DNA from: Ferruginibacter sp.
Lineage (GTDB): Bacteria; Bacteroidota; Bacteroidia; Chitinophagales; Chitinophagaceae
DNA length: 19,211 nucleotides
Assembly: GCA_018057635.1 (NCBI GenBank)
Contig: JAGPDJ010000009.1
Coordinates: 1 to 19,211 of the forward strand
Direction of reading: 5' to 3'
Made by a program: the position numbers and the translations under genes. The notes under the pieces were generated by a model. It saw only the letters and a list, made by a program, of their open reading frames with translations. It was not told where the DNA came from and searched no databases. Below, piece by piece: positions 1 to 17,494 of the stretch (within the stretch, counting starts at the first letter, position 1; each line of letters begins with the position of its first letter).

Positions 1-119
1 ACATATAACAGGTTTTATAAAGCAATTCCTGTAAATTAATACAAAGGGCAGGGCGAACTACCGAAACTATACTTAATTACCAGAAAAAAGTTGAGCAGTT
101 ATGTTCTGAACGGGAGTTA

Positions 120-479
120 TCAGAGGAGTTCTTTTACTTTTTTCATGAGGTCGCGGGTACTGAAAGGTTTGGTTATATACAGGCTGGCACCCAGGTCGTA
201 ACCTTTTTGAATATCTGATTCCCTGCTTTTGGCACTCAGGAATACAACACTGATGTCTTTCAGTTTTTTTGTTGTCTTGATGTGTTTGCATATCGCATAA
301 CCATCAACGTCAGGCATCATGATATCAAGCAAAACAAGTACCGGAACTTCCTTGTCAACGATTTCAAGTGCTTCCTTACCGTTTCGGGCAACTTTTACAT
401 CGTAGCCTTCTTTCTTCATCAGGAATTCAAGCGACATCAGTATATATGGGTCATCATCTACTACAAGTATCTTTTTCAT
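120..479 (-). CDS. Stand-alone receiver-domain response regulator (CheY-like)
   Basis: A 119-residue protein that is a single receiver domain. The acidic pocket is D8-D9 in VVDDD, the likely phosphoacceptor is D52 in LLDIMMPD, the switch residue is S82 in FLSAKS, and the conserved lysine is K104 in TKPF. The chain ends right after the last helix, so no DNA-binding or enzymatic output domain is present. It starts 9 nt after the stop of the symporter-histidine kinase gene on the same strand and is almost certainly its partner in the same transcript. By family knowledge the phosphate passes from the kinase histidine to D52. What follows is not visible: the protein may act by protein contact or pass phosphate on. 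In gammaproteobacterial CrbS/CrbR systems the regulator carries a LuxR-type HTH, so the lack of one here is notable. Confidence 0.93.
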   Translation of the reverse strand: MKKILVVDDDPYILMSLEFLMKKEGYDVKVARNGKEALEIVDKEVPVLVLLDIMMPDVDGYAICKHIKTTKKLKDISVVFLSAKSRESDIQKGYDLGASLYITKPFSTRDLMKKVKELL

Positions 480-488
480 AAATTATTA

Positions 489-3197
489 TCAACTGATCGG
501 TAGTGTAAAGATAAACCGTGATCCGTTTCCTTCTGTACTTTCCACCCAGATTTTTCCATGGTGCATTTCAACAATCTTTTTACAAATAGCCAATCCCAAC
601 CCGGAGCCTTCAGGTTTCTTTAATGTCTGGTTCCTTGCCTGGAAAAATTTATCAAAAATCAATTCATGAAGGTCTTGTGCAATTCCCCGGCCATTATCTT
701 CAACCCAAACCTGAAGTTCGTCGTGATTAGTATGCAATGAAACCCTGATCATGCCGTTTTCTTCCGGGGCAAACTTGATGGCATTTGACAATAAATTATA
801 CAATACCTGTTGTATAAGCGAAGCATCGCATTGTACCAGGTACATAGAATCCGGCACTTTTTTAATAATACTGATATTTTTCTCTTTTGCAAGTGCATTT
901 ACAGATACGATCGTATCATCCAGTAAATCGTTCATCAGCACTGCAGCAATATTCAGATGCTGACGACCGCTTTCATATCGTTCCAGGCTAAGAACCTGGG
1001 TAATGAGGTGGCTTAACCTTTCTGTTTCTTTGATCAGGCCCGATAAAAAATATTGCTTTTCTTCGTCATTCATAGATGGGTTATCATGCACAATTTCGGC
1101 CATTGCCCGGATGGAGGTAAGCGGTGTTCTGAGTTCATGGGTAACCGTATATAAAAATTCATCTTTCAGCTGGTCAATATCCCTCAATTGTTCGTTGGCG
1201 TTGGTTAACTGATCCGTTGCTTTTTGCAATTCGGCCGATTTTCTCCTCAGTTCTTTGTTCAGTTCCATCATCTGTTGTGATTCGCGTAGAATATTGATCA
1301 CTTCATCAATCTTCAATTCCTCTTCTTTTGTTACAGAACTTACCATGATCCTGGCAGATGCAGAACCGATCACACCACTCAAAATTTTTTCTGCAAATGA
1401 TACCAGCCTGGGGTCAGCTTTCTTCTGATCCATTGGTATCCTGTTGCGCTGTGCAAATGCACTGATTATCTTTTTTGCCCTTTCAGCACCCAGGAAATTT
1501 GACAACAAAGAATCCAGGTCTTTCAGGTATGCGGTACCTTTCCACAGAACATTGCTGTCTGAATTGGATGAATGACGGAAAATATCTACAAAGATCTCTG
1601 CCTGGTATATTTCCTGTGCAGACCTGCTGCTGTTTAATGAAACAGCAACCAAACTCACAATATTAAACAGCATACTCCAGAAAAAACAATGTGTGATAGA
1701 ATCCATACCTTCCATACCGAACAACGACAATGGTTTCAGCCATTCAATTCCAAACAGGCCGTTTTGTACAATACTGCTACTGATGATGCCTGCACTTGAC
1801 ATAGAAGGTATAACAGCTGTAAAGAACCAGACTGCAAATCCTACACAAATACCTGTTAATGCTCCTTTTTGTGAAACATGCTTCCAATAAATACCAAGGA
1901 TAACCGAAGGTGCAAACTGGGCTACTGCAGCAAATGAAATAAGACCAATAGATACCAATGTAAAATATTGTGCAACGATCTTGTCGTACAGGAAAGCAAA
2001 TGCTATGATCAATACTATACAAATGCGCCTGATGTTTAAAATCAGGTTGCGTAATTTACCGTCGCTGTGAGCCCTGAATTTATTTGTAGACAATAATAAC
2101 GGTGTTGCAATATTGTTGCTCATCATGGTACTCAGTGCAATGGTTTCAACAATGATCATACTGGTTGCTGCAGAAAACCCACCGATGAAAGTGAAAATCC
2201 CCAGCAATTTTTCGCCATGCTGCAAGGGTAAAGAAAGTACATACATATCTGCACTCACACCGGAATTTGCCAAAAGTAACTTCCCTCCAAATGCAACAGG
2301 AATAACAAATATATTGATCAGGAGCAGGTACAACGGGAAAAGCCAGATCGCTTTTTTCAGATGAGATTCCTGTACATTTTCCACTACCCCTAACTGGAAT
2401 TGCCTTGGCAGGAAAACAATGGCCAGCATTGACAAAAGGATGAGCCCAAACCAGGAAATATAAGATGTATTGGGTTCAATTAAAAACAGTTTCTTCATTG
2501 ATTCGTTTGCACCTGCCTGCGCAAATATATCTGTAAACCCATTGAACAATCCGTATGTTACAAATATACCGACTGCTATAAACGCTATTAATTTTATTAT
2601 TGATTCAAAAGCAATCGCCGCAACGAGTCCTTCATGTTTTTCAGATGCATCAATTGACCTTGTTCCAAAAAGAATGACAAAAATGGTTATTACGATGGCA
2701 ATATAAAAAGTGTTGTCGCCGATAAAACCGGCCAGCCCGGGTTCCGGTGCCGCAACACCTGAGAGTACACTGAAACTTGTTGATATGGCCTTAAGCTGCA
2801 GGGCTATGTATGGAATGATCCCCAACACACATAATATGGTGACCACAACTGCGAGGGAAAAATTCTTACCATACCGTGTTGAAATAAAATCGGCAATGCT
2901 GTTTATCCGCTGGGTACGGCAAATGCGTATGATTTTTCTTAATAATGGCCAGAACAAAGCAGCCATGATGGTTGGCCCTATATAGATGGTAATGAATTCA
3001 ATGCCCCTGGAAGATGCCAGTTCAACACTGCCGTAATATGTCCATGCCGTACAATACACCCCCAGGGAAAGCGCATATACATATGGGTTATTAATGATAC
3101 TTTTTCCCTTTTTCAGTTTATACTCAGCATAGTATGCCACCCCGAACAAAATACACAGGTACAGTAAAATACTGACTATGGCCATCCAGTTATTCAT
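489..3197 (-). CDS. Sodium/solute symporter-like sensor histidine kinase (SLC5-STAC-HisKA-HATPase, CrbS/CbrA-like)
   Basis: A 902-residue inner-membrane sensor. Residues about 1-520 form a many-helix sodium:solute symporter (SSS/SLC5) domain. Residues about 553-625 match the STAC linker (LLSNFLGAERAKK, then SGVIGSASARIMVSSV). A coiled coil follows at about 630-680. The kinase core has the H-box at 681-692 with phosphoacceptor H687 (VTHELRTPL), N-box N801/N805, G1 DNGRG at 834-838, an F-box near 848-853 and G2 GSGLGLA at 864-870. I see no PAS domain between STAC and the H-box. Known relatives sense or transport a small solute: CrbS controls the acetate switch and acs, CbrA senses histidine. 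Acetate as signal is inferred from acs and transporter genes nearby. The start overlaps the preceding 71-residue gene by ATGA (3194-3197), and the receiver follows after 9 nt. Confidence 0.95.
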   Translation of the reverse strand: MNNWMAIVSILLYLCILFGVAYYAEYKLKKGKSIINNPYVYALSLGVYCTAWTYYGSVELASSRGIEFITIYIGPTIMAALFWPLLRKIIRICRTQRINSIADFISTRYGKNFSLAVVVTILCVLGIIPYIALQLKAISTSFSVLSGVAAPEPGLAGFIGDNTFYIAIVITIFVILFGTRSIDASEKHEGLVAAIAFESIIKLIAFIAVGIFVTYGLFNGFTDIFAQAGANESMKKLFLIEPNTSYISWFGLILLSMLAIVFLPRQFQLGVVENVQESHLKKAIWLFPLYLLLINIFVIPVAFGGKLLLANSGVSADMYVLSLPLQHGEKLLGIFTFIGGFSAATSMIIVETIALSTMMSNNIATPLLLSTNKFRAHSDGKLRNLILNIRRICIVLIIAFAFLYDKIVAQYFTLVSIGLISFAAVAQFAPSVILGIYWKHVSQKGALTGICVGFAVWFFTAVIPSMSSAGIISSSIVQNGLFGIEWLKPLSLFGMEGMDSITHCFFWSMLFNIVSLVAVSLNSSRSAQEIYQAEIFVDIFRHSSNSDSNVLWKGTAYLKDLDSLLSNFLGAERAKKIISAFAQRNRIPMDQKKADPRLVSFAEKILSGVIGSASARIMVSSVTKEEELKIDEVINILRESQQMMELNKELRRKSAELQKATDQLTNANEQLRDIDQLKDEFLYTVTHELRTPLTSIRAMAEIVHDNPSMNDEEKQYFLSGLIKETERLSHLITQVLSLERYESGRQHLNIAAVLMNDLLDDTIVSVNALAKEKNISIIKKVPDSMYLVQCDASLIQQVLYNLLSNAIKFAPEENGMIRVSLHTNHDELQVWVEDNGRGIAQDLHELIFDKFFQARNQTLKKPEGSGLGLAICKKIVEMHHGKIWVESTEGNGSRFIFTLPIS

Positions 3198-3409
3198 GAG
3201 CCGCTGTTACTTTTTGGCCCCTTATGTTCCGCCGACCTGTACAATAATATGATACTGACCACCCATGCCACAGCTATATAAACAAAAAGCAACGGGATGC
3301 CGGCCACCATTTTTGATTTATTGGCAAGTGAAATAAGCGGGTAACAGAATACAACCATCATCAGCAGGGCAAGAAAGGTAAAGCGTTGTTTTTTTATCCT
3401 GTCGGGCAT
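3194..3409 (-). CDS. Small two-helix membrane protein, DUF3311-like symporter small subunit
   Basis: A 71-residue protein with a basic N-terminus (MPDRIKKQR), a first hydrophobic segment at about 12-28, a short loop NKSKMVAGIP, a second segment at about 34-56 and a polar tail. The pattern of asparagine, then GIP and an aromatic second helix resembles DUF3311-type small partners of sodium/solute symporters. This is recognition by eye, not a search. It overlaps the symporter-kinase gene by 4 nt, so the two are probably translationally coupled and made in equal amounts. It may stabilise or complete the symporter half of the sensor. Its ATG at 3409 is 11 nt after the U-tract of a strong terminator, leaving no room for a promoter of its own in between. 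Confidence 0.85.
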   Translation of the reverse strand: MPDRIKKQRFTFLALLMMVVFCYPLISLANKSKMVAGIPLLFVYIAVAWVVSIILLYRSAEHKGPKSNSGS

Positions 3410-3420
3410 ACAAAGTGATT

Positions 3421-3477
3421 AAAAAAAGAATAACATTCATTTACTAAAATTGAATTTAGTAAAGAATGTTATTCTTT
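3421..3477 (-). terminator. Long intrinsic terminator hairpin between transporter genes and sensor genes
   Basis: Two arms, 3425-3448 and 3455-3477, pair over about 23 bp with a single bulged base and a 6-nt loop (ATTGAA). On the minus strand the stem is followed directly by seven T residues (complement of 3421-3427). The U-run fixes the direction: it would end transcripts from the porin, MFS and 85-residue genes. The stem is unusually long and may also block 3' exonuclease. The next gene begins 11 nt beyond it, so it could also act as a leaky attenuator for the sensor genes. Confidence 0.85.
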
Positions 3478-3493
3478 CATAAATAAATCTTGC

Positions 3494-3751
3494 TTAATAA
3501 TCGGTGATCTCTGCCGAACTCTCAGGCAGGTGGTCATAATAACCCTTAACACTGTAATAACCGAAAATGAGTAAACCGATACATATTGGTATAAATATGA
3601 CCAAAATAATCACCCATTGCAATGTTACGTTAGACCTGGTTAAGTCACTGGCTTTCCCGATCTTGTCTGAAGCCTGCCAAAGCAGAAATGCTACTGTTGC
3701 AGGTGATAAGAGTATCCAGATAATTCCTAAAAATCTTTTTAAAGCATTCAT
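3494..3751 (-). CDS. Small two-helix membrane protein linked to the MFS transporter
   Basis: An 85-residue protein with hydrophobic segments at about 8-26 and 44-66 and a conserved-looking end (FGYYSVKGYYDHLPESS). I recall similar 70-85-residue Bacteroidota proteins next to MFS genes, possibly the family catalogued as DUF6814, but cannot confirm it here. It starts 25 nt after the stop of the MHS-type transporter and is the last gene before the terminator at 3421-3477. It therefore shares the transporter's transcript rather than the sensor's. A role as an accessory subunit of the transporter is inferred from position only; no catalytic motif is visible. Confidence 0.85.
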   Translation of the reverse strand: MNALKRFLGIIWILLSPATVAFLLWQASDKIGKASDLTRSNVTLQWVIILVIFIPICIGLLIFGYYSVKGYYDHLPESSAEITDY

Positions 3752-3776
3752 ATTAATAATTTTTTAAGTTTTGTAA

Positions 3777-5474
3777 TTAATCCATTACGTCTGTATCTAT
3801 TTTGTTGTTCAGGTAGATCGCTCCTATTATCAAACTAAGAATGGCAACTCCAATCGGGTACCACAAACCGGCAAGAGGGTCACCACCTGGATTTTCCGGT
3901 GTTTTGGTAAATTCAACGATCAAAGTTCCCAGGAATGGAACCAGACCACCAAAAACGCCGTTACCAATATGATAAGGCAAAGACATGGAAGTGTACCTGA
4001 TCTTTGTTGGGAATAATTCAACCAGGAATGCTGCCATTGGCCCGTAAACCATCGTTACAAAAATAATCTGTATAAATACAAGAAAAACCATTTTCCAGAA
4101 TGTCTGTTTATCCAGTTCCTTTTCTGTGACCACACCTGGTTTCACAGATTTTTTGTCAACACTTACATAAGTTACCCCATCCGGCAATGATGTTCCGGCA
4201 GGTACTTTTGCCTTAACCATAACGGTATCCATAGACGAAGGATCGGATTTTGATGCCAGGATGTAACCTATTGAAGCCGTTTTACCCGCATAAGATTCCG
4301 TTAAATGAAGTGTATCTGTTTTTGTATAAGTATATTTAGCCCCGTCGGTGTAAACACTATCATACTTGGTTGAAACGGTCACTTTCTTTTTATCCTTTGC
4401 ATCAATTGCAGCCAGTGATGCGCCAACCGTTGTTTTTGAAGCATCAACCAAGGCTGATCTTGATGCCGGACTCGTCAAATTGAGAAAGGTTTTATATATC
4501 GGGAAATAACTAAGAATACCCAACAGCATACCGATCAGCATGATCCATTTCCGCCCGATCCTGTCGCTCAATGACCCAAATACAACAAAGAACGGTGTGG
4601 CAAAAAGGATAGCGATTAAAATGATGTTCCTTGAATCAACAAAATTCACTTTACAAACATTCTCAATAAACGATTGAGCATAAAACTGACCGGTGTACCA
4701 GATAACTCCCTGTCCCATTACTGCTCCAAAAAGTGCCAGTAACACCATTTTAAAATTAGCCCGGTGGCCAAAACTTTCTTTCAATGGGTTAGTAGAAGTT
4801 TTACCCTCAGCTTTCACTTTGGCAAACATTGGCGACTCGCTCATGCGCATACGGATAATGATACTTACAATTACCAGTAACAAGGATATCCAGAAAGGGT
4901 AACGCCATCCGCCCCATTCTGATGTGAAATTTTCAACACCCTGTGCTTCGCGAAGCAAGATGATGATACCAAGAGCAAGAAACAATCCCAATGTGGCAGT
5001 AGTTTGTATCCAGCTGGTCCAGAAACCCCGCCTGTTAGCCGGCGCATGTTCAGCAACGTAAGTAGCGGCGCCGCCATACTCTCCGCCTAATGCAAGGCCC
5101 TGCACCAAACGAAGTACCAGCACCAATATGGGTGCAGCCCAGCCAATAGTTTTAAAGCCGGGCACAAGGCCAATGGCAAATGTGGAACCACCCATCAAAA
5201 TGAGTGTTAGCAGGAATGTGTATTTACGGCCAATCAGGTCTCCGAGTCTTCCAAATACCAGAGCTCCAAAAGGCCTTACAATAAAGCCTGCAGCAAAAAT
5301 AGCCAGCGTGCTTAGCAATGCAGATGTACCTGAATCTTCCGGGAAAAACTGTTTGGAAATAACGGTGGCTAACATACCAAATATGTAAAAGTCATACCAT
5401 TCAATCAGCGTGCCTACAGATGAAGCCCCGATGATGAACCCCATCCCTTTTTCCGGTTTTATATTGTTACTCAT
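3777..5474 (-). CDS. MFS transporter, metabolite:H+ symporter (MHS) type, with large periplasmic insertion
   Basis: A 565-residue inner-membrane carrier. The N-terminus GTLIEWYDFYIFG (21-33), the first signature loop GRLGDLIGRK (75-84), RLVQGLALGGEYGG (122-135) and the repeat signature GSLSDRIGRK (300-309) are typical of MHS carriers such as ProP, KgtP and ShiA, which move carboxylates or betaines with protons. Twelve helices can be placed. Between predicted helices 9 and 10 lies an extra stretch of about 125 residues (331-457), rich in Thr, Ser and Lys, where family members usually have a short loop. Topology puts it in the periplasm. The gene lies 29 nt after the porin-like gene. Acetate or another short monocarboxylate is a reasonable substrate guess from acs and the sensor nearby, but the sequence does not settle it. 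Confidence 0.93.
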   Translation of the reverse strand: MSNNIKPEKGMGFIIGASSVGTLIEWYDFYIFGMLATVISKQFFPEDSGTSALLSTLAIFAAGFIVRPFGALVFGRLGDLIGRKYTFLLTLILMGGSTFAIGLVPGFKTIGWAAPILVLVLRLVQGLALGGEYGGAATYVAEHAPANRRGFWTSWIQTTATLGLFLALGIIILLREAQGVENFTSEWGGWRYPFWISLLLVIVSIIIRMRMSESPMFAKVKAEGKTSTNPLKESFGHRANFKMVLLALFGAVMGQGVIWYTGQFYAQSFIENVCKVNFVDSRNIILIAILFATPFFVVFGSLSDRIGRKWIMLIGMLLGILSYFPIYKTFLNLTSPASRSALVDASKTTVGASLAAIDAKDKKKVTVSTKYDSVYTDGAKYTYTKTDTLHLTESYAGKTASIGYILASKSDPSSMDTVMVKAKVPAGTSLPDGVTYVSVDKKSVKPGVVTEKELDKQTFWKMVFLVFIQIIFVTMVYGPMAAFLVELFPTKIRYTSMSLPYHIGNGVFGGLVPFLGTLIVEFTKTPENPGGDPLAGLWYPIGVAILSLIIGAIYLNNKIDTDVMD

Positions 5475-5503
5475 TGTTTTAGTTTTGAATTATAAAAAAA
5501 TTA

Positions 5504-6901
5504 TTACAGGAATATTTGTGTTTGCAACATCAGTTCACCTTTGCTGCCATTACGTTCCGGATTACCGCTTACTGTTTTATATAAAGGCCTGGTGCTGTAT
5601 TGCAGCGTGATCTTTGCATTGTGCCCGTTAACGAGGTAATTCATACCGAGGTCAAATTGTCCGGATGCTTTATCTATGCGATCGAATTTTTTATATGTAA
5701 ATGTTGCATATGGCATTAAAGCAGAACCATTTTTGAATTTTGGCAATAAATAACCTGCCTGTGTATACCAAATATTTCCTGTTCCAATTGTTGGTTGCAG
5801 GTTTCCTCCCCCAGCCCAGGATGTTTCTGAATTGGTTGCCAAAGATTGTGTTGTACCATGCAGGTTGAGGATACCGATATTACGGATATAGTTTTTACCG
5901 AAATAATTATTATAAAAAACGCTGTACACGCTTAATGCAGTACCCGTTTTTTTATTCAGGGGTAATTCAAGGAATACATCTGCGCCGAGGTTATACTGGT
6001 TGTGTTCTTTAACGGAATCAAGTGCAGAAGCCCTGCTGGCAGTTGCTCCTTTATGAGTATACCAACCGGCGCCAACATTCAGCACTTTTTTCTTTCCCAG
6101 GTAAGTTCCCACAAAATAGGGTAACGCATTGCTCTCACTTTCCCAGAACATATAGTTAAGGTAGCCACCGGTACTCCAGTTTTCATTTAAAACATTCACA
6201 GCATTTGCAGAGGTTACAGCAGAAAGGGATGAACCAAATGCAAATGGTTTATTGAGGTGAATCCTGTAATCCAGTTTTCCCAGCTGTCCTTTTGCATAGA
6301 TACCCAGTTGCCTTGCAAACTGGTCTGTAGCTTCAATATTGAACCAGTTAAAAATAGGCGCATCCATTGTCATAAAGTTCAGTGTACTGTGACTGCTTAA
6401 CCTTGAAACGCCGTTCCAATAATGCAAACCTGCACCAATATGCAGTTTCCCGGGTTTGATGGCATATTCCGTCCAGGCATCATGTATATAAACCTGCGGA
6501 CGTTTTCCTCCCTGGGCAGTTGCACTGGAGCCGGTACCTAATGTGCCCGAACCACCACCATTTACAAAACTCTGGTTATTGATGCCCCAATGGCTTACAA
6601 TCATGAAACGGGGAGAAACCTGCACCTGTACCAGGAACCTGGAACGGCGTATGGCTATATCAGTAGCATTCTTCTGAACCTTGCCATTGATATCAAGCGT
6701 ACCTGGATTGTTATTCGTATAGGAAGCCCATATCTGGTGCCAGGTGATGAAGCGAATAAACTTCTGCCCCTTTTCATCCAGTTTTAAAACAATAGGTTTA
6801 TAGCTGTGGTCAATACCGGGAGCATTGGTACCCTGTGCATACAGCCTGGCTGCAGCAAGACTACTAACAGCAAGGGTCAAACTAAGCAATCGTTTAAACA
6901 T
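5504..6901 (-). CDS. Outer-membrane porin-like beta-barrel protein
   Basis: A 465-residue secreted protein with a clear signal peptide (MFKRLLSLTLAVSSLAAARLYAQ), probably cut after residue 23. I chose the ATG at 6901 because the upstream ATG at 6952 would put 17 residues before this normal signal. The mature chain alternates polar and hydrophobic residues with many aromatics (ITWHQIWASY, RFMIVSHWGINNQ, LGAGWYTHKG-like strands) and ends in the hydrophobic strand MLQTQIFL, as expected of a barrel. It resembles OprO/OprP-type porins in layout. It is followed after 29 nt by the MHS transporter, so the pair probably moves one solute across both membranes. A palindrome at 6977-7004 lies about 75-100 nt upstream of its start. 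Confidence 0.88.
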   Translation of the reverse strand: MFKRLLSLTLAVSSLAAARLYAQGTNAPGIDHSYKPIVLKLDEKGQKFIRFITWHQIWASYTNNNPGTLDINGKVQKNATDIAIRRSRFLVQVQVSPRFMIVSHWGINNQSFVNGGGSGTLGTGSSATAQGGKRPQVYIHDAWTEYAIKPGKLHIGAGLHYWNGVSRLSSHSTLNFMTMDAPIFNWFNIEATDQFARQLGIYAKGQLGKLDYRIHLNKPFAFGSSLSAVTSANAVNVLNENWSTGGYLNYMFWESESNALPYFVGTYLGKKKVLNVGAGWYTHKGATASRASALDSVKEHNQYNLGADVFLELPLNKKTGTALSVYSVFYNNYFGKNYIRNIGILNLHGTTQSLATNSETSWAGGGNLQPTIGTGNIWYTQAGYLLPKFKNGSALMPYATFTYKKFDRIDKASGQFDLGMNYLVNGHNAKITLQYSTRPLYKTVSGNPERNGSKGELMLQTQIFL

Positions 6902-6976
6902 AATCGTTGGTTTGTGAATGATGAAAATTAAATTCACAACCAATTTCTGCATTAAACCTGTCAGTTATCAAATATC

Positions 6977-7004
6977 AACTATATCCATGCAAAACAATAT
7001 AGTT
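6977..7004. promoter_or_regulatory. Palindromic element upstream of the porin gene
   Basis: Perfect 8-bp arms AACTATAT (6977-6984) and ATATAGTT (6997-7004) flank a 12-nt centre. The element sits between the stop of the InsA-like gene and the porin start. On the minus strand it has no T-tract, so it is a poor terminator. It resembles the palindrome upstream of acs: both have TATA, then a T-rich stretch, then GCAT, two purines and ATATA. An operator is the likeliest reading. Confidence 0.5.
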
Positions 7005-7433
7005 TTAATATGCATTTTTCCTGAAACGTTCCCATTTGATGAGCATGAATTTATCACCCAGTTCGGTGATCATACAACCAGCACTTTTTAATGCATCACG
7101 GTGACTGAAATATTCTTTCAATTCGTCGTGGTTCAATACTTTATAGGTGGGCCTGTACTCATGGTTTGGGGGTGCTGTAACATGGTATTTTTTCACCCAG
7201 TTCATCACTGAAACATGACTGATACCAAGTATGCGTTCAATTTCCCTGTATGTTACTCCTTCAATAAACAATTGCAAAGCTTTTATCACATAATAAGGGT
7301 CTATGTTCTTGCCGTCTTTCAGTACAGTAAAAAAATAATTACAGGTTTTGCAACGGTAACGCTGTCTTCCTTTAACAATACCGCTTTTAGCAAGTTCCTC
7401 ACTTTTACATTTTGGGCATGCAATCTGTTTCAT
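7005..7433 (-). CDS. InsA/IS1-like zinc-ribbon and helix-turn-helix DNA-binding protein, probably a domesticated regulator
   Basis: A 142-residue protein. A zinc ribbon is formed by C6-x2-C9 and C28-x2-C31 (CPKCKSEELAKSG, then RQRYRCKTC), followed by a helix-turn-helix at about 57-82 (VTYREIERILGISHVSVMNW). This layout is that of the IS1 InsA protein and IS1-type transposase N-termini. Residues about 95-142 form an extra C-terminal region with no DDE catalytic motif, and no InsB-like gene lies beside it. The frame is intact and ends cleanly. It is divergent from acs across 107 bp and lies 103 bp upstream of the porin start on the same strand. I infer a transcription factor derived from a transposase rather than a live insertion sequence. 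A palindrome 21 nt upstream of its start could serve autoregulation. Confidence 0.85.
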   Translation of the reverse strand: MKQIACPKCKSEELAKSGIVKGRQRYRCKTCNYFFTVLKDGKNIDPYYVIKALQLFIEGVTYREIERILGISHVSVMNWVKKYHVTAPPNHEYRPTYKVLNHDELKEYFSHRDALKSAGCMITELGDKFMLIKWERFRKNAY

Positions 7434-7453
7434 CTGATAAAATTAAATGGTCA

Positions 7454-7480
7454 GGTATACTATTTTAGCATAAATATACC
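7454..7480. promoter_or_regulatory. Palindromic element in the divergent acs / InsA-like intergenic region
   Basis: Arms GGTATA (7454-7459) and TATACC (7475-7480) flank a 15-nt centre containing TTTTAGCAT. A second TTTAGCA follows at 7483-7489, 19 nt after the first at 7464. The element ends 60 nt before the acs ATG and begins 20 nt before the InsA-like ATG on the other strand. Its core matches the element at 6977-7004, apart from one inserted base and a few substitutions. A shared operator is inferred. Confidence 0.5.
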
Positions 7481-7540
7481 AATTTAGCAAAATAAATTTC
7501 ACGCTGCTTTACAGGTTTGCTTATTTTTATATCCTAAAAA

Positions 7541-9487
7541 ATGATTGCTATGTCATATCCTTATCAGATAAATTCATTTGAACAATACAAGTCAGACTAT
7601 AAAAAAAGCATTGATGAGCCGGAAGCATTCTGGGGCCAGGTTGCTGAAAATTTTTACTGGAGAAAAAAATGGGATAATGTACTGGAATGGAATTTCAAAG
7701 AACCCCGTATTGAATGGTTCAGGGGCGCCAAACTGAATATCACAGAAAACTGTATTGACAGGCATTTGGAAAAATTGGGCGATAAGCCGGCCATCATCTG
7801 GGAGCCCAATAACCCGGAAGAAAGGACCCGCATTGTTACATACAACCGTTTACATAAAAGGGTTTGCCAGGTTGCACAAATGCTCACCAACAATGGAGTA
7901 AAAAAAGGCGACAGGGTATGTATATATATGGGCATGGTACCTGAACTTGTGTATGCGGTTTTAGGATGTGCCAGGATCGGGGCCATACACAGCGTGGTTT
8001 TCGGTGGTTTCAGTGCACAAAGTATTGCCGACAGGCTGGATGACGCACAGGCAACATTTATAATCACCTGCGATGGTGCTTACAGGGGAAATAAAGATAT
8101 ACCCCTTAAAAGTATCATTGATGATGCGCTGATCGGGAATAAGACCATCCAAAAAGTGATCGTATATACCCGGACAAGAACACCGGTATCGATGCTTAAA
8201 GGAAGAGACCTCTGGTGGGAAGACGAAATGGAACATGCAGAAACGCAAATAGAAAAGGATGGAGTGATATCCTTTCCTGCTGCAGAAATGGATGCGGAAG
8301 ATCCGTTATTCATCCTGTATACTTCCGGATCTACAGGAAAACCCAAGGGTGTGGTTCACAGCTGTGCCGGGTACATGCTCTGGACAAACTATACATTTGT
8401 GAATGTATTCAATTACCAGCCCGGGGAAATTCATTTTTGCACAGCAGATATCGGATGGATTACCGGCCATAGTTACATTGTTTACGGCCCACTGAGTGCG
8501 GGCGGAACTTCGCTGATGTTTGAAGGTGTACCTACCTGGCCCGATGCCGGCAGGTTCTGGGATATTGTTGATAAACACCAGGTTAATATCCTGTATACCG
8601 CACCGACTGCCATCCGGAGCCTGATGGGATTCGGGCTTGACCCGCTGAAAGGGAAAAATCTTTCATCTTTGCGTATACTCGGTACCGTTGGTGAACCCAT
8701 CAATGAAGAGGCCTGGCATTGGTATGATGAAAATATAGGAAAGAAAAAATGCCCCATTGTAGACACCTGGTGGCAGACAGAAACCGGTGGTGTTATGATA
8801 TCCAATCTTGCGGGCATTACAGACTCAAAACCAGGCTGGGCAACCCTTCCGTTACCGGGCGTATATCCCTTACTGGTAGATGACCAGGGAAATGAAGTAA
8901 CAGAAAAAGATGATCATGGCCTGCTGAAAGGGAATTTATGCATCAAATCTGCCTGGCCTTCCACCATTCGAACAACTTACGGTGACCATGAACGCTGCCG
9001 CACAAATTATTTTGCCACCTACGATAATTTATATTTCACCGGCGACGGTGCGCTGAAAGACGAAGCAGGCAATTACCGAATAACAGGACGGGTAGACGAT
9101 GTGTTAAACGTAAGCGGCCACCGCATTGGTACGGCTGAAGTGGAGAACGCCATCAATATGCACTCCGGCGTTGTGGAAAGTGCTGTTGTAGGTTACCCGC
9201 ACGATATAAAAGGCCAGGGAATATATGCTTATGTGATCTGTAACCACATGCATGGAGATGAAAACCTTACCCGCCAGGATATCCTGCAAACAGTGTCACG
9301 TATCATTGGCCCGATTGCCAAACCGGATAAGATACAGTTTGTAAACGGGTTACCTAAAACAAGAAGCGGTAAGATCATGCGGCGCATATTGAGGAAAATA
9401 GCAGAAGGTGATATGGAAAATGTGGGTGATACTACTACCCTGCTTGACCCGGCTGTGGTTGAAGAAATTAAGGAAAAAAGAATTTAA
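7541..9487 (+). CDS. acs: Acetyl-CoA synthetase (AMP-forming acetate-CoA ligase)
   Basis: A 648-residue cytoplasmic enzyme making acetyl-CoA from acetate, ATP and CoA through acetyl-AMP. Length matches the family. Visible motifs: P-loop-like YTSGSTGKPKG (260-270), DTWWQTETGG (408-417, whose second tryptophan limits the pocket to acetate in Salmonella Acs), YFTGDGALKDEAG (498-510), the hinge and CoA region GRVDDVLNVSGHRIGTAEVE (516-535), and PKTRSGKIMRR (605-615) with the regulatory lysine K611 that acetyltransferases modify in other bacteria. The ATG at 7550 would give an N-terminus MSYPYQI, which I recall as usual for Bacteroidota Acs, so it is a serious alternative start. The gene is divergent from the InsA-like, porin, transporter and sensor genes, which supports an acetate-use module. 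Confidence 0.98.
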   Translation: MIAMSYPYQINSFEQYKSDYKKSIDEPEAFWGQVAENFYWRKKWDNVLEWNFKEPRIEWFRGAKLNITENCIDRHLEKLGDKPAIIWEPNNPEERTRIVTYNRLHKRVCQVAQMLTNNGVKKGDRVCIYMGMVPELVYAVLGCARIGAIHSVVFGGFSAQSIADRLDDAQATFIITCDGAYRGNKDIPLKSIIDDALIGNKTIQKVIVYTRTRTPVSMLKGRDLWWEDEMEHAETQIEKDGVISFPAAEMDAEDPLFILYTSGSTGKPKGVVHSCAGYMLWTNYTFVNVFNYQPGEIHFCTADIGWITGHSYIVYGPLSAGGTSLMFEGVPTWPDAGRFWDIVDKHQVNILYTAPTAIRSLMGFGLDPLKGKNLSSLRILGTVGEPINEEAWHWYDENIGKKKCPIVDTWWQTETGGVMISNLAGITDSKPGWATLPLPGVYPLLVDDQGNEVTEKDDHGLLKGNLCIKSAWPSTIRTTYGDHERCRTNYFATYDNLYFTGDGALKDEAGNYRITGRVDDVLNVSGHRIGTAEVENAINMHSGVVESAVVGYPHDIKGQGIYAYVICNHMHGDENLTRQDILQTVSRIIGPIAKPDKIQFVNGLPKTRSGKIMRRILRKIAEGDMENVGDTTTLLDPAVVEEIKEKRI

Positions 9488-9571
9488 CCGGTTTAAATTG
9501 TCATATTAAAAATTTCATTAAATTCACTGTTGAAGAGCCTGGTCAATTTAGACTGGTTAAAAACAACCCTT

Positions 9572-10972
9572 ATGGAATTAAATACAAAGCATCAGGAAAT
9601 TGAAAATAACATCGTTATTTTAAGAAGACATATTCTAAATATTACAATTTCATGTTTGTTGCTTTTTTCTATAAATACAACTGTAGCCCAGATTGGCATT
9701 GGCACCAACAACCCGGACCCAAGTGCGGCTTTACATGTTTATGATACGGCCAGGGGGCTTCTGATACCCAGGTTAACTGCTTTACAAAGAGCAGCAATCG
9801 TTTCACCGGCGGAAGGTTTGCTGATTTACCAGACAGATGCAATAAAAGGATATTGGTATTTTACTGATGGCGTGTGGCGGAATATGGCTGCTGCAATGAA
9901 TGGCGGTAAACAAACACTCATACTGGCCGACAATATTACAAATGCCGAAGCACAGGCTAAAATTGCTGCAGAAGTTGGCCCTAATACACAAGAGATAAGA
10001 ATCAACAGGTGCAGTAATCTTACAACTGTTGATCTTTCCATGGTAACCAGCCTTACTGAAATTTACATTTCCGGCAACCCGGTTTTACAAAGCGTTAATC
10101 TATCCAATCTGCAATCTATTGATGGCGGTTTTTTCATTGATAAATGCCCGTTGCTTTCAACCCTTTCTACAAATTCTATTACAAAAATTGGCCAGACTTT
10201 TAATGGAACTTACGGCCTGGAAATTAAAAACTCAGGTGTACAGAACCTGAATATGCCATTGCTGACTCAAATTAGCGGAACCATTTACATTTACAATAAC
10301 AGCGCACTTTCGGCTATTAGTTTCCCGCAACTTTCCGATCACCCTTTAAACGGGTCATTTGCTTTTTCTATACAATTGAACACAACACTTTCCAATATTT
10401 CTTTGCCCGCACTTAACATTGTTGGAGACATTTCCATGGGGAATAATTATAACCTGGCTGCTGTTAATTTATCTGCCTTAACATCAGCAAATTCATTGTT
10501 AATAAGCAACAGCAATGTCATCACATCCATCGCCTTACCGGTTCTGAATAGTGTAAATATTGGAATAATAATTGGTGGAAATAGTTTACTGAATACCATC
10601 TCATTACCCTTCCTTTCATCCATAGGTAATTTTAATATTCAAAATAATGCTTCGCTGGCCAGCATTTCATTTCCTTCCTTAACAAGCATCAGCAATGCAC
10701 AAAATGGAAGTTATATTATTAACAACAGCAATCTCACTTCCATTACATTTAATAACCTGGCCACATTTTCTAACCAGGCTTTTGGTTGCCAGGGTAACAA
10801 ACTTCCTTCTGCACAGGTTAATAATCTGCTGAATAAATTTGTTTCTATAATTCCTTTATTAACCTATAGAGATTTTGATTTCAGGCAAACTTCAGCAGCT
10901 CCTCCAACAGGCCAGGGAATTACAGATAAAACAACTTTAGAGCTAAGGCCTAATGTTGTTTATACTGATTAA
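9572..10972 (+). CDS. Secreted leucine-rich-repeat-like surface protein
   Basis: A 466-residue exported protein of unknown function. I chose the ATG at 9572; an upstream TTG at 9530 is in frame but only lengthens an already long N-region. The signal peptide ends near residue 40 (INTTVAQ). A head at 41-105 (IGIGTNNPDPSAALHVYD, then GLLIPRLTALQRAAI and YWYFTDGVWRN) is a common N-terminal module of Bacteroidota secreted proteins. Residues about 145-405 hold irregular 20-25-residue repeats of the kind NNSALSAISFPQL and NNASLASISFPSL, consistent with a BspA- or receptor-L-like solenoid. The end (PPTGQGITDKTTL, then VVYTD) looks natural, with no type IX sorting domain. It is rich in Asn, Ser and Ile, unlike the metabolic neighbours. 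Adhesion or glycan binding is possible but not shown. Confidence 0.88.
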   Translation: MELNTKHQEIENNIVILRRHILNITISCLLLFSINTTVAQIGIGTNNPDPSAALHVYDTARGLLIPRLTALQRAAIVSPAEGLLIYQTDAIKGYWYFTDGVWRNMAAAMNGGKQTLILADNITNAEAQAKIAAEVGPNTQEIRINRCSNLTTVDLSMVTSLTEIYISGNPVLQSVNLSNLQSIDGGFFIDKCPLLSTLSTNSITKIGQTFNGTYGLEIKNSGVQNLNMPLLTQISGTIYIYNNSALSAISFPQLSDHPLNGSFAFSIQLNTTLSNISLPALNIVGDISMGNNYNLAAVNLSALTSANSLLISNSNVITSIALPVLNSVNIGIIIGGNSLLNTISLPFLSSIGNFNIQNNASLASISFPSLTSISNAQNGSYIINNSNLTSITFNNLATFSNQAFGCQGNKLPSAQVNNLLNKFVSIIPLLTYRDFDFRQTSAAPPTGQGITDKTTLELRPNVVYTD

Positions 10973-11216
10973 AATTTTATACCGTAATTCCAAATTTTAC
11001 ATAAATTAATGTCCAATCATACTTAATGATACAGGATGGCCTTTACTAACATAGGTATCTATAAAATACAACCAATTGCCTCATTTACAGCATCAAAATT
11101 ATCATTTACCCATAAAAAGCTGATATTATTGTACCTTTACACTCATCTGCCGAAAATAGTAACTCCTTTTCCACAGGTGTATTAAAACATATAATACAAC
11201 AAATCAGCAATTCATC
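10973..11216. other. Intergenic region before the cold-shock-domain gene, no gene seen
   Basis: This AT-rich 244-bp stretch has no convincing ORF, hairpin terminator or repeat. A TACCTTTA at 11132-11139 resembles the Bacteroidota -7 element TAnnTTTG, but the matching -33 element is poor. A promoter for the next gene is plausible only. Confidence 0.3.
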
Positions 11217-11663
11217 ATGGCAGAAACCTGGAATAAAAAGGAAAGAGAAAAGAAAAAAAAGCAACAAAAAAAAGAAAAGGCCGAGAAAAAACAGGAGCGA
11301 AAAGACAATCCGAGGAATGGCGACGGACAAGACAGTATGATCGCATACCTCGACGAGAATGGCAATATCTCCTCTACTCCACCCGATCCGAGAAAAAAGA
11401 TCATCATCAATGCCGAAGATATTGAAATAGGTGTTCCCAAACATGTACCAGCTGAAGCAGGTGAAATTACAAGGAACGGTACTGTTACTTTCTTCAACCA
11501 TGATAAAGGATACGGATTCATCAAAGATGTGCTAACCCAGGAAAGTGTATTTGTTCATATCAATTCTCTGAGTGAACCGATCAATGAACAGAATAAAGTA
11601 AGTTTCGAAATTGAAATGGGGCCCAGAGGTTCTAATGCAGTAAATGTAAAACTTATCAAATAA
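11217..11663 (+). CDS. Cold-shock-domain RNA-binding protein with lysine-rich N-terminal extension
   Basis: A 148-residue protein. Residues about 87-148 form a cold-shock domain with RNP1 KGYGFI (97-102) and RNP2 VFVHI (111-115), the surface that binds single-stranded RNA or DNA. Residues 7-29 are nearly all Lys, Glu, Gln and Arg, a highly charged probably helical or disordered tail. A linker at about 38-85 carries DENGNISSTPPDPRKK. Classical CspA proteins are about 70 residues, so the extension doubles the size; such extended forms are familiar in Bacteroidota. The role is probably RNA chaperoning in the cytoplasm. It stands alone, with its neighbour on the far side convergent. Confidence 0.93.
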   Translation: MAETWNKKEREKKKKQQKKEKAEKKQERKDNPRNGDGQDSMIAYLDENGNISSTPPDPRKKIIINAEDIEIGVPKHVPAEAGEITRNGTVTFFNHDKGYGFIKDVLTQESVFVHINSLSEPINEQNKVSFEIEMGPRGSNAVNVKLIK

Positions 11664-11715
11664 AAATACTCTCCGGTAAAAGACAGATACAGCTGCATAA
11701 CTCAATGTAACATAG

Positions 11716-12009
11716 TTAGTCTTTTGCGTATTTGGCTATAATAATCTCCGGATATTCATTTTTCTCAGTTGCCCATTTATACAATAATTCACTGTTAAGT
11801 GGTTCATAGATATCTTTCTTTAACGGGTCAGTTGGTAATTCCCTGAAGGGAACAAGTAATAAATAATGTGGCTCCACATAATCATAGTGCATGTCAAGTG
11901 TCAACCCTTTAATCTGAACAAATTTATACCCTTTACTTATCAGGTTTTCTAATGCCAATACATTGAAAATTGTTGAGCCGTTTTTTGCCTCTGTTATTCC
12001 TTTTCGCAT
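11716..12009 (-). CDS. Hypothetical 97-residue protein
   Basis: I do not recognise this protein. It is soluble-looking, with no signal peptide or membrane helix, and has mixed charged and aromatic composition (TLDMHYDYVEPHYLLLVPFRELP, split here as one continuous patch near residues 37-59). The start MRKGITEAKNGS and the stop TAA at 11716 are clean, and normal amino-acid use supports a real gene. It converges on the cold-shock gene with a 52-bp gap and is divergent from the PEP carboxykinase gene, with 287 bp between. No partner in the window suggests a function. Confidence 0.7.
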   Translation of the reverse strand: MRKGITEAKNGSTIFNVLALENLISKGYKFVQIKGLTLDMHYDYVEPHYLLLVPFRELPTDPLKKDIYEPLNSELLYKWATEKNEYPEIIIAKYAKD

Positions 12010-12218
12010 ATGACTGATTATTTTCTTTCAATAACAAACAATAAACGGTTATGTTCATACCACCCAAATTATTAAAATACAAGATCGGATTAACAATGTT
12101 TAACCATTTAATTACATATCAAGCCATTAAAAAACAGGTTTTTTATTACATCAAAACGAAATTGAGTAAAAAGTATTTTCTTTAATTATGCAAATCAAAA
12201 TCAGCAACTAATATGATT

Positions 12219-12241
12219 AACAACATTTTAAAATTGTTGTT
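12219..12241. promoter_or_regulatory. Inverted repeat upstream of PEP carboxykinase
   Basis: Perfect 7-bp arms AACAACA (12219-12225) and TGTTGTT (12235-12241) flank TTTTAAAAT. It lies 55 nt before the PEP carboxykinase start in an otherwise gene-free 287-bp spacer. There is no following T-run, so an operator or leader hairpin is more likely than a terminator. A TAACTTCG just downstream (12248-12255) is one base from the Bacteroidota -7 consensus. Confidence 0.4.
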
Positions 12242-12296
12242 TATTTTTAACTTCGCAAATCAGCAATTTCATTATTAAAATAGAAAAACAAATTTT

Positions 12297-14156
12297 ATGA
12301 TCCCGCACAGCAACGCTTATATTCTGGATAATACCCCTGCAAAGGATGAAATAGAAAGTTGGATAAACAGGCAGGCTGCTTTTTGTGAACCAAAATCAAT
12401 TCATTGGGTTGATGGTTCGCAGGGAGAATATGATAGTCTGTGTAACTTATTGGTAAAAAAAGGAACATTCATTCCACTAAACCCTGAAAAGAGGCCCAAT
12501 AGTTTTGCCTGTTTCAGCGATCCAAGCGATGTGGCAAGGGTTGAAGACAGGACCTTTATTTGTTCCAGGTTAAAAGAAGATGCCGGACCTACCAATAACT
12601 GGATGGAGCCTTCAGCAATGAAAAAAGTACTCGACAAACACCTGGAGGGTTGTATGAAAGGCAGAACCATGTATGTGATTCCATTTTGTATGGGGCCACT
12701 CGGTTCACCTTATTCCAGATATGGTGTGCAGATTACCGATTCTGAATATGTTGTGGTGAATATGCGTATTATGACAAGAATGGGTGAAAATGTGCTACCC
12801 TATATTAAAAAGAATGGTTTTGTAAAATGCATGCACACTGTTGGCGACCCGCTTGAAAACGGAAAACCAGAAAGTAAATGGCCCTGTAACCCTGATGTAA
12901 AATACATTTCGCATTTCCCTGATGAACGTATGATCATATCTTATGGTAGTGGGTATGGTGGAAATGCTTTGATGGGAAAAAAATGTTTCGCATTGCGGAT
13001 TGCATCTGTTTTGGGAAGAGAAGAAGGCTGGCTGGCAGAACACATGCTTATCATGGGTGTAGAATCTCCCGACAAGAAAAAAAATTACGTAGCAGCGGCT
13101 TTCCCGAGTGCTTGCGGAAAAACAAATTTTGCCATGCTTATCCCACCAAAAGAATTTGAGGGATGGAAAATAACAACAGTTGGTGATGATATTGCATGGA
13201 TCCACAAAGCAGGCGATGGTCAATTATTTGCAATAAATCCGGAATCAGGATATTTTGGAGTAGCGCCCGGTACGAATTTTAAAACAAATCCAAATGCAAT
13301 GGAGAGTATCAGGGCTAATACCATTTTTACAAATGTTGCCATTACAAAAGATAAAGATGTTTGGTGGGAAGGGATGACCAAAGAAATTCCGGATGGATTA
13401 ACCGATTGGCATGGCCAGCCCTGGGACGCTGCCAGTGGAAAACCCGCAGCACATCCAAATTCAAGGTTTACTGCTCCGGCTCATCAAAATCCGGCAGTTG
13501 ATGAAAAATGGGATGATCCAAAAGGTGTTCCAATAGACGGATTTATATTTGGTGGAAGAAGAAGTTCCGGAGTACCCTTGGTTTATCAGTCTTTCAACTG
13601 GAATTTTGGCGTTTACCTGGCAACAACCATGGGCAGTGAAACTACTGCTGCTGCCTTTGGAGAAATAGGTAAAGTGCGCCGCGACCCGTTTGCCATGCTG
13701 CCATTCATGGGTTATCATATCGGAGACTATGTAAATCACTGGCTGCAATTTGGCAGAAACCTTCCAAATGCACCCCGGATATTTGGTGTAAACTGGTTTA
13801 AAAAAGATGAAAATGGTAAATTCTTATGGCCCGGATTCAGTGATAATATTCGTGTACTTATATGGATCGTGCAAAGAATAAGAGGCCGTGCATCATCTGT
13901 TGAAAGCCCTATCGGCTGGATGCCACGCTATGAAGATCTTGACTGGCGTGGGTTGGAAAATTTTACCCGGGAAGATTTTTCTAAAATTATGGCTGTAGAA
14001 AGAGAACCCGGTAAACAGGAACTTCTATCACATGAAGAATTATTCGAAAAAATATATGACAAGCTTCCGAAAGAATTCTTTTTCATGAGAGAATTGCTTT
14101 TATCTGCATTGTGGCGTTCACCTGAAAAATGGAAACTGGAATCAGAAGATCATTGA
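12297..14156 (+). CDS. pckG: Phosphoenolpyruvate carboxykinase (GTP)
   Basis: A 619-residue cytoplasmic enzyme that interconverts oxaloacetate plus GTP with PEP, CO2 and GDP. Length fits the GTP class, as do the motifs: R-loop [12 protein letters not shown] (79-90), kinase-1 PSACGKTN (270-277, with the reactive cysteine of the GTP enzyme), kinase-2 GDDIAW (296-301), [10 protein letters not shown] (419-428), and the nucleotide-binding [18 protein letters not shown] (496-513). The ATG at 12297 gives the expected N-terminus. It can serve gluconeogenesis from acetate and propionate carbon, or run toward oxaloacetate in fermentative Bacteroidota; the sequence does not decide. It ends 43 nt before a clear terminator, so it is probably transcribed alone. 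A palindrome 55 nt upstream may regulate it. Confidence 0.98.
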
Positions 14157-14199
14157 TATATAACAGGTATTTGAATAAAATATCAACTTAAAAAAATCA

Positions 14200-14229
14200 G
14201 GCAACGGGGCTGTCCTGTTGCCTTTTTTT
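14200..14229 (+). terminator. Intrinsic terminator after PEP carboxykinase
   Basis: The arms GGCAACGGG (14200-14208) and CCTGTTGCC (14214-14222) pair over 9 bp with one G-T wobble and a 5-nt loop GCTGT. Seven T residues follow at 14223-14229, and an A-run precedes the stem at 14191-14196. This is a textbook rho-independent terminator. It ends 12 nt before the next start codon. Confidence 0.93.
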
Positions 14230-14241
14230 AAATTTATTAAT

Positions 14242-15912: not shown

Positions 15913-15928
15913 TTTTATATTCCTGAGA

Positions 15929-17473
15929 TTACAATGGAATGTTACCGTGTTTTTTCCTGGGTCTTTTAGCCACTTTGTTTTCCAGCATGGCAAAAGCCTT
16001 GATCATTTTTCTCCGGGTATCTCTTGGTTCAATTACTTCATCTATAAATCCCCGTTCGGCAGCTGTATAGGGATTGGCAAACAATGCTGCATATTCGGCT
16101 TCCTTCTCCAGTAATTTCTTTGCCGGGTCTGCCGAAGCAGCAATTTCATTCTTAAAAATGATCTCACTCGCTCCTTTGGCTCCCATCACGGCAATTTCTG
16201 CAGATGGCCATGCATAGTTCATATCTGCACCAATATGTTTTGAGTTCATTACATCATAAGCACCGCCATAAGCTTTCCGGGTGATCACAGTAACACGTGG
16301 CACCGTTGCTTCACTGAGCGCATATAATAGTTTGGCGCCATTGGTAATAATGCCATTCCATTCCTGGTCTGTACCCGGTAAAAAACCCGGCACATCTACC
16401 AATACCATCAGCGGAATATTAAAACAATCGCAGAATCTAGTGAACCTGGCGCCTTTTACGGAGCTGTTGATATCAAGTACACCTGCCAGGCACATGGGCT
16501 GATTGGCAACAATACCAATACTCCTTCCGGCGATCCTGGCAAAACCAACTACCATATTATCAGCAAAATCCCTGTGTATCTCAAAAAATGAATCAGTATC
16601 GCAAATGCCATTAATAACATTGCGCATATCATAAGGCTGATTGGCACTTTCAGGCACTATACTTTCCAGCACTTCCCTTGTTTCATCAACTGGCGTATAA
16701 GGAAGTTTTGGAACCACATCTTCGCAGTTCTGAGGCATGTAACTGAGCAGTTTTTTTACATGCTCAATACATTCCATATCATTTGGTGCGGTTAAATGAG
16801 TTACACCCGACTTAATAGAATGTGTAGACGCACCACCCAGTTCTTCTGAAGTAACTTCTTCATTGGTTACTGTTTTCACCACATTTGGCCCGGTTACAAA
16901 CATATAACTGCTGTTTTCTACCATAATGGTGAAATCGGTCATTGCCGGGGAATAGACTGCACCGCCGGCACATGGCCCCATGATGGCAGATATTTGCGGA
17001 ATAACACCGGATGCCTGTACATTGCGGTAAAATATTTCGGCATAACCTCCCAATGACCTAACGCCTTCCTGTATACGAGCACCACCTGAATCATTCAGCC
17101 CGATCATGGGAGCCCCGGTTTTCATTGCCATATCCATGATCTTACAGATCTTCTCGGCATGAGTTTCGGATAATGCGCCTCCAAAAACAGTAAAATCCTG
17201 TGCAAAAACATACACGAGTTTTCCGTTCACGGTACCATAACCGGTTATTACTCCATCACCATAATATTGCTGGTTTTCCATTCCAAAGTCCTTGGTACGG
17301 TGAATGACAAGGCCTCCTATCTCTTCAAAACTGCCCGGGTCCATCAAAAGTGTAACCCTTTCCCTGGCGGTTAATTTTCCTTTCTTATGCTGCTTTTCAT
17401 TCCTATCTGCGCCGCCACCCAATTTACTCAGTTCAAGCTTTTCCTTTAAAATTTCAACTTTTGATTTCATCAC
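15929..17473 (-). CDS. pccB: Acyl-CoA (propionyl-CoA) carboxylase carboxyltransferase subunit
   Basis: A 514-residue biotin-dependent carboxyltransferase. It moves CO2 from carboxybiotin to an acyl-CoA, forming methylmalonyl-CoA if the substrate is propionyl-CoA. Two crotonase-like halves are visible. The oxyanion-hole glycines are in [12 protein letters not shown] (166-177) and [11 protein letters not shown] (399-409). D407 in the latter matches the aspartate that marks propionyl-CoA preference in Streptomyces PccB, where acetyl-CoA-specific enzymes differ. [11 protein letters not shown] (127-137) and [11 protein letters not shown] (430-440) also fit. It starts 21 nt after the biotin carboxylase gene in the same operon. 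The related decarboxylase alpha subunit is similar in sequence, but the adjacent biotin carboxylase argues for a carboxylase. MM at the start leaves one codon of doubt. Confidence 0.95.
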
Positions 17474-17494
17474 AAAAAAATATTTTTACATGTA

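Follow-up and report, generated by a model that had tools for sequence, protein, structure and literature searches.

How could the signal of an acetate-related sensor kinase reach DNA when the receiver protein encoded beside it carries no DNA-binding domain? This question is raised by a stretch of Ferruginibacter sp. DNA of 19,211 nt (contig JAGPDJ010000009.1 of GCA_018057635.1, positions 1-19,211, forward strand; hereafter the window), the minus strand of which encodes an InsA-like protein (beginning at 7433), a porin-like protein, an MHS-type carrier, a DUF6814 protein, a membrane protein of 71 amino acids (aa), an SLC5-STAC-histidine kinase and a receiver (ending at 120), the acetate--CoA ligase gene acs being divergent from this block. 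We found this operon to be conserved, to be preceded by a tandem repeat that recurs at acs and prpE, and its InsA-like protein to co-occur with the kinase. We regard it as rather probable that the module is a conserved Bacteroidota switch for short-chain acids, mainly acetate, in which a domesticated IS1-type InsA protein, acting at a dedicated operator, would be the DNA-binding output of an SLC5-STAC two-component system.

A conserved gene order around insA and acs

A preliminary description, made from the sequence alone, had proposed these genes as a contiguous module for acetate sensing, uptake and activation. All eight open reading frames (ORFs) and the divergent layout of acs were recovered as described there, and Pfam and NCBIfam scans back the names REC, kinase, DUF6814, MHS, InsA and acs:

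120-479, minus strand: stand-alone receiver (REC), 119 aa; PF00072 at residues 4-116, 107 bits, E 7.9e-31
489-3197, minus strand: SLC5-STAC-histidine kinase, 902 aa; Pfam matches SSF, HisKA and HATPase_c
3194-3409, minus strand: two-helix membrane protein, 71 aa, overlapping the kinase start by 4 bp; CbrX-like by place and size, not by sequence
3494-3751, minus strand: DUF6814 small membrane protein, adjoining the MHS carrier; PF20664, 94 bits
3777-5474, minus strand: MHS-type carrier of the major facilitator superfamily; TIGR00883, 348.7 bits, below the cut-off of 443
5504-6952, minus strand: porin-like outer-membrane protein; NF040900, 43.1 bits, cut-off 150; no Pfam match
7005-7433, minus strand: InsA-like putative regulator, 142 aa; zinc ribbon 1-37, helix-turn-helix (HTH) 46-83, C-terminal beta-alpha-beta-beta
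7541-9487, plus strand: acs, acetate--CoA ligase; TIGR02188, 909.1 bits, cut-off 724.95

The porin-like identity proposed earlier has weak family support, and the name draws on the sub-threshold match together with the conserved place of the gene. The acs product passes the AcsA equivalog model for acetyl-CoA synthetase and its closest solved relatives are the acetyl-CoA synthetases 2p20/1pg3.

A profile search with the InsA-like family yielded at least 579 relatives among 591 candidate stretches, the best 80 of which were kept (the L loci), so that close relatives are over-represented in the counts drawn from them. The usual order in these relatives is InsA, porin, carrier, small proteins, kinase and receiver, with acs either divergent beside InsA, chiefly in Chitinophagaceae, or downstream of the receiver, as in Hymenobacter, Flavobacteriia and Cytophagales. 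Sixty-seven loci extend 8 kb or more past InsA. In these, tblastn placed the kinase on the InsA strand in 62 and the receiver likewise in 61, and it detected MHS in 55 and a porin of the window type in 51. The acs gene was present in 54 loci (33 divergent, 21 downstream), some being counted as missing because the fetched stretch ends first, and a distant acs paralogue of less than 45% identity, which we label prpE-like, in 31 of the 67. Apart from the module genes and those replacing them, every gene cluster was confined to 15 loci or fewer, the clusters not all being named. The preliminary description had staked its module on conservation of this order among relatives; since relatives across Bacteroidota, i.e. 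Chitinophagaceae, Hymenobacter, Flavobacteriia and Cytophagales, keep it, the order goes beyond chance and the contiguous module stands. Three loci without an InsA ORF from the ORF caller (L038, L046, L051) were left out of the neighbourhood listing, tblastn finding InsA there; one contig, JASGCQ010000086.1 (L019), is titled Phycisphaerales yet bears the Bacteroidota operon and is probably misbinned or mistitled.

The transport genes are the variable part of the operon. In 11 of the 80 loci (L052, L055, L056, L059, L065, L067, L069, L073, L075, L077 and L080) a carrier of other clusters (C13, C14) and a small partner occupy the place of MHS and DUF6814; in L052 this pair matches DUF4212 and a VC_2705-family sodium symporter, far over the cut-off. 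Judged from these proteins, the carrier is exchanged for a non-homologous one while sensor, InsA and repeat stay. The MHS carrier of the window has an extra hydrophilic loop of ~100 residues (about 340-450), rich in Thr, Ser and Lys.

Independently of this selection, we searched 296 genomes of the phylum (the G genomes). The InsA-like protein occurs in 26 of them in one copy each, 23 being strong matches (E below 1e-50), and the kinase in 32. Strong InsA and kinase are found together in 21 genomes, compared to ~2.5 expected from random association. The kinase search scored three candidates per genome, G186 and G310 being rechecked with all candidates scored. Among ten InsA-positive genomes that were checked, mostly ones in which the kinase was not seen beside InsA or the contig broke off, nine possess the kinase.

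Eleven genomes carry the kinase without InsA. Their loci (L081-L091) contain no half-site of the repeat above 12 bits, and the repeat itself has no match in any of the eleven genomes. Eight proteins from seven of these eleven kinase loci comprised PAS, exonuclease-domain, HTH_3/M78 and phosphotransferase system enzyme I proteins and two without family. The HTH_3 and M78 protein adjoins the kinase (L087, 11900-13390, minus strand); this make-up is that of the RamB/ScfR regulators of short-chain acyl metabolism, and the protein is perhaps a replacement regulator.

The InsA-like protein and the tandem repeat before its gene

The InsA-like protein passes the InsA zinc-ribbon model NF050000 (43.6 bits, cut-off 28) and scores 77.3 bits with the IS1 transposase model NF033558, under its cut-off of 100, the match covering positions 1-110 of 199 of the profile. 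It shows the N-terminal zinc ribbon followed by an HTH typical of IS1 InsA and has no C-terminal DDE catalytic half, ending after 142 aa with the porin ORF starting 52 bp after insA. Neither is it multicopy as expected from a mobile IS1 family transposase, each of the 26 positive genomes having one copy. The proteins of the 80 loci are 64-86% identical to that of the window, and relatives are labelled "IS1 family transposase" in some sources. We reject an active insertion sequence, as the gene is single-copy per genome and lacks the catalytic half. The transposase-derived regulator of the preliminary description thereby gains support: the gene is single-copy, its product lacks the catalytic half, and the repeat described below stands in front of it and again at acs and prpE. 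That acetate would be the ligand, which way regulation would run and how kinase, receiver and InsA would be linked are taken up further on as proposals.

Searching with the structural model in Foldseek gave no match at E <= 0.001, and a VIA structure search returned matches of HTH and zinc-ribbon size only, the C-terminal part thus being barely probed. Tree congruence over 50 loci is high for all four genes compared (Mantel 0.64-0.84), so that it does not single out InsA. More distant InsA-like proteins, 37-40% identical, lie in other contexts without the tandem repeat (L094 at 8054 and L095 at 8971, both plus strand), and there may be further domesticated InsA-type regulators in Bacteroidota.

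In front of InsA, a tandem direct repeat of the form TTGCTAAnnnnGTATA-nnn-TGCTAAnnnnGTATA with a period of 19 bp is visible by eye in most loci. This repeat and a half-site at the window edge are additions to what had been reported before, and they are listed here together with the neighbouring promoter elements:

7456-7490, minus strand: candidate tandem operator TTGCTAAATTGGTATATTTATGCTAAAATAGTATA, 35 bp, between insA and acs
7438-7445, minus strand: -7-like box TAATTTTA of the insA promoter, 10 bp after the candidate operator
7522-7529, plus strand: -7-like box TATTTTTA of the acs promoter, 31 bp from the candidate operator edge
68-82, minus strand: half-site TGGTAATTAAGTATA upstream of the presumed prpE, 16.1 bits, at the same place as the half-sites of relatives
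2-4, minus strand: ATG at the edge that may start prpE, a propionate--CoA ligase-like gene lying outside the window; the prpE-like gene of relatives follows REC at a similar gap

The window repeat has no mismatch to the 34-base pattern (0.00 expected by chance; none in 200 shuffles), and of the 81 upstream regions, those of the 80 loci plus that of the window, 73 match at least 20 of the 25 seed letters, the aligned sites holding 47.5 bits. Site scores range from -4.2 to 52.9 bits with a median of 43.9, compared to a maximum of 5.9 in 1.5 million shuffled positions. Across 20 whole genomes, exactly one site with 0-2 mismatches was found in 17, a site with three mismatches in two and none in one, with three further matches at three mismatches versus nine for the reversed pattern. 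When the spacing was left free and no mismatch was allowed, the pattern matched 19 times in 31 genomes, once in each of 19, its reversed control never.

The 80 loci also supplied the seed, which was picked by eye; the phylum sample therefore tests the repeat more independently, though G001 is the genome of L002. The repeat is present at no more than one mismatch in 18 of the 296 genomes, all InsA-positive, lying directly before InsA in 16, between InsA and porin in one (G210) and at a contig end in one (G285). Three further genomes (G092, G073, G162) have it before InsA with 2-3 mismatches, G186 has a version with one extra base by eye, and in G310 the upstream region ends at the contig end. 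Matches with two mismatches occur in six InsA-negative genomes, and some match at up to three mismatches in 77 of the 296, mostly background as with the reversed control.

Stronger evidence than the link between repeat and insA comes from the copies at acs and prpE. In G317/L117 and G321/L118, where the far end of the operon is formed by prpE and then acs, a separate tandem repeat with a period of 23 precedes acs by ~180-190 bp. A half-site lies 52-54 bp before acs in loci in which acs is separated or further away from InsA (L020, L024, L040, L043, L048), and a half-site also precedes acs in L105. Inspected by eye, 14 of the 26 loci in which prpE directly follows the receiver have a half-site in the gap, for example CTGGTTATTTGGTATA, six passing the 12-bit threshold; the window half-site at 68-82 probably belongs to the prpE gene starting at the window edge.

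The 80 loci, the window left out, hold 45 extra half-sites above 12 bits: 26 before module genes, eight within genes and 11 elsewhere. Shuffles (3 in 405,545 positions) predict ~20 by chance in 2 x 1.45 million positions. Over ten genomes, one half-site pattern gave four module matches and 19 elsewhere (reversed control 12) and a second gave ten module matches and four elsewhere (reversed control 7); further targets may lie among the matches elsewhere.

The consensus of the Bacteroidota -7 element is TAnnTTTG. On the InsA side, 18 of 73 sites have a -7-like box (five of six letters or better) 10 bp past the repeat; on the acs side, the box lies at offset 30 (12 loci) or 31 (21 loci) from the repeat edge among 39 divergent loci. 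In 25 of 31 and 32 of 34 cases, there is no TTTG or TTG 17-23 bp ahead of the box. With these positions, the second repeat would cover the -33 region of the insA promoter, and the complete candidate operator would lie upstream of the acs promoter, a geometry which fits an activator at two weak promoters.

A proposed path from the kinase to the promoters

Residues 11-621 of the kinase align to residues 15-590 of PDB 10ed_A, the SLC5-STAC part of Pseudomonas CbrA, supporting the presence of STAC and thus an SLC5 domain joined to a histidine kinase via STAC as in CrbS-type sensors. A Pfam scan of the 902 aa lists SSF, HisKA, HATPase_c and HATPase_c_5 only, with neither PAS nor a fused REC; the HATPase match reaches residue 901 and REC is encoded by a separate gene, so the kinase does not combine PAS and a C-terminal REC in one protein as CrbS/MxtR does. 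Nor is the receiver, in which D52 and K104 were located by counting, joined to a LuxR-type DNA-binding domain as in CrbR, PF00072 covering 4-116 of its 119 aa. A hydrophobic small ORF lies directly before the kinase or overlaps it in 56 of 68 loci; a profile of the 71-aa family searched against the PDB gave a best match of E 0.75, CbrX not being listed.

We propose that the SLC5-STAC kinase and its small membrane partner would sense the acid or its metabolic consequence and that the kinase would phosphorylate the stand-alone receiver, a phosphotransfer that is standard for both families. Lacking a DNA-binding domain, the receiver has to rely on a partner protein, and the InsA-like protein, as the one DNA-binding protein retained with the module, is its proposed target. 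As the presumed domesticated DNA-binding half of an IS1-type transposase, InsA would bind the tandem repeat before its own operon, would reach acs and prpE through a shared or copied operator and would most likely activate its targets upon receiver phosphorylation, while porin and carrier would import the acid and Acs and PrpE would convert it to acyl-CoA. Binding of InsA to the repeat, activation over repression, contact between receiver and InsA and acetate as the signal are thus predictions of the model. Its most specific form, in which the phosphorylated lone receiver controls InsA, in place of a response-regulator output, at the tandem operator, with copies accompanying rearranged acs and prpE, is put forward tentatively, doubt slightly outweighing belief.

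Several observations weigh against this proposal. The repeat usually lies in the insA promoter, making its co-occurrence with insA partly trivial and weak as evidence. Eight of the 81 upstream regions fit poorly with 16-19 seed letters (L054, L060, L066, L068, L074, L076, L078, L079), some having a degenerate or shifted second half; none of eight Hymenobacter loci has a half-site before prpE, and in two genomes with acs on another contig than InsA (G318/L109, G005/L112) acs has no site. Two strong InsA genomes, G186 and G310, lack the kinase, also with all candidates scored, suggesting that InsA may work without it, and in G318 and G324, which do have both genes, the kinase is on another contig than InsA, within a separate unit of 71-aa protein, kinase and receiver that carries no candidate operator. 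The repeat further covers the expected -33 of the insA promoter, and as IS1 InsA represses its own promoter, repression of insA also fits. These last points would be accounted for if InsA were a kinase-independent local regulator of transport and acs, autorepressor-like as in IS1, with kinase and receiver reporting elsewhere and merely co-inherited. We consider this unlikely, although it is the most serious alternative for the role of InsA: 21 of the 23 strong InsA genomes also have the kinase, far above the random expectation, the receiver has no output domain of its own, and clusters other than the module genes and their replacements stay at 15 loci or fewer.

A different transcription factor, unlinked to the locus, could bind the repeat with InsA as a passenger, as a repeat in the insA promoter might belong to any regulator of the operon. 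That InsA is the first gene after the repeat, has a zinc ribbon and HTH and is well conserved across the 80 loci, and that the repeat is absent from all kinase-positive InsA-negative genomes, renders this improbable. Barely credible is an active or recently dead IS1-type insertion present by chance; the transposase label of relatives and the 77 bits to the IS1 model are outweighed by the single copies, by a match confined to the first 110 profile positions and by the same place and strand across the phylum. Regarding the acid, a module mainly for propionate or other monocarboxylates, with acs as a side target, would suit the prpE-like gene that 31 of 67 loci carry downstream, frequently behind a half-site of its own. 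This is also unlikely, since acs passes the acetate--CoA ligase equivalog cut-off and is found in 54 of the 67 loci, and since the prpE-like protein of L005, the only one scanned, has its best matches among propionate--CoA ligase models, yet below both their cut-offs, and barely passes that of an acetate--CoA ligase subfamily. The InsA-dependent switch responding mainly to acetate hence remains our preferred reading.

Relation to known systems and neighbouring genes

E. coli yjcH is the small membrane protein gene in acs-yjcH-actP. The module resembles this operon in combining acs with a small membrane protein and a presumed acetate symporter; it differs in the carrier, which is MHS with DUF6814 or VC_2705 with DUF4212. 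E. coli actP is cotranscribed with acs (PMC7918813), which is under CRP control (PMC5436829).

The CrbS/CrbR (MxtR/ErdR) system is an SLC5-STAC acetate kinase system known in Vibrio, Pseudomonas and Sinorhizobium (PMC5436829, PMC5715377, PMC7918813, PMC9100948). The module would work like it in tying an SLC5-STAC sensor kinase to acs and a presumed acetate carrier, yet by its defining parts it is not CrbS/CrbR, because it has no hybrid kinase with PAS and fused REC, no LuxR-type domain on its receiver and a tandem direct repeat in place of the imperfect inverted ACTU repeat. A CrbR-type output at the locus was rejected, the receiver being bare and no other cluster occurring in more than 15 loci. 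CbrX is a small membrane protein whose gene overlaps that of an SLC5-STAC kinase and which packs against the symporter domain of CbrA (PMC13022988); the window shares the gene overlap and the alignment of its kinase to the CbrA structure 10ed, whereas CbrB is a sigma-54 activator and the 71-aa family has no sequence match to the solved CbrX chain. RpuS/RpuR similarly couples an SLC5-STAC kinase to the monocarboxylate carrier MctP, with RpuR itself reported to activate transcription via a conserved promoter motif (PMC9100948), whereas the window receiver has no output domain. IS1 InsA, a DNA-binding autoregulator without the catalytic half that represses its own promoter (PMC12428005), shares the zinc ribbon and HTH; the window protein differs in lying outside an insertion sequence, in single copy within a metabolic operon, in its longer C-terminal part and in its tandem direct repeat.

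SLC5-STAC kinases are reported in many phyla and, as far as the cited passages go, characterised mainly in Proteobacteria with ordinary response regulators (PMC9100948, PMC7918813). With a few search terms, we found no description of an InsA-like acetate regulator in the open-licence PMC literature. The module names a candidate output for a receiver without a DNA-binding domain as well as a candidate operator, may illustrate how a conserved metabolic regulator was recruited from an IS1-type DNA-binding domain, and suggests acetate-related roles for DUF6814 and the VC_2705/DUF4212 carriers in Bacteroidota.

In Winogradskyella, a conserved hydrophobic protein of 74-75 aa is encoded between receiver and prpE/acs (L073, 17313-17540, plus strand; also L052, L077, L080), with no Pfam match above cut-off. 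A scan of the window revealed no RNA family at the gathering threshold. Near acs, the window carries a GTP-dependent phosphoenolpyruvate carboxykinase (GTP-PEPCK) gene at 12297-14156 and a biotin carboxylase/carboxyltransferase pair on the minus strand at 15929-17473 and 17495-18970, which could belong to acetate/propionate assimilation; the half-site scan of the window found none above 12 bits before these genes. Directly after acs, positions 9530-10972 of the plus strand encode a protein with a weak receptor-L/leucine-rich-repeat match (E 2.8e-07).

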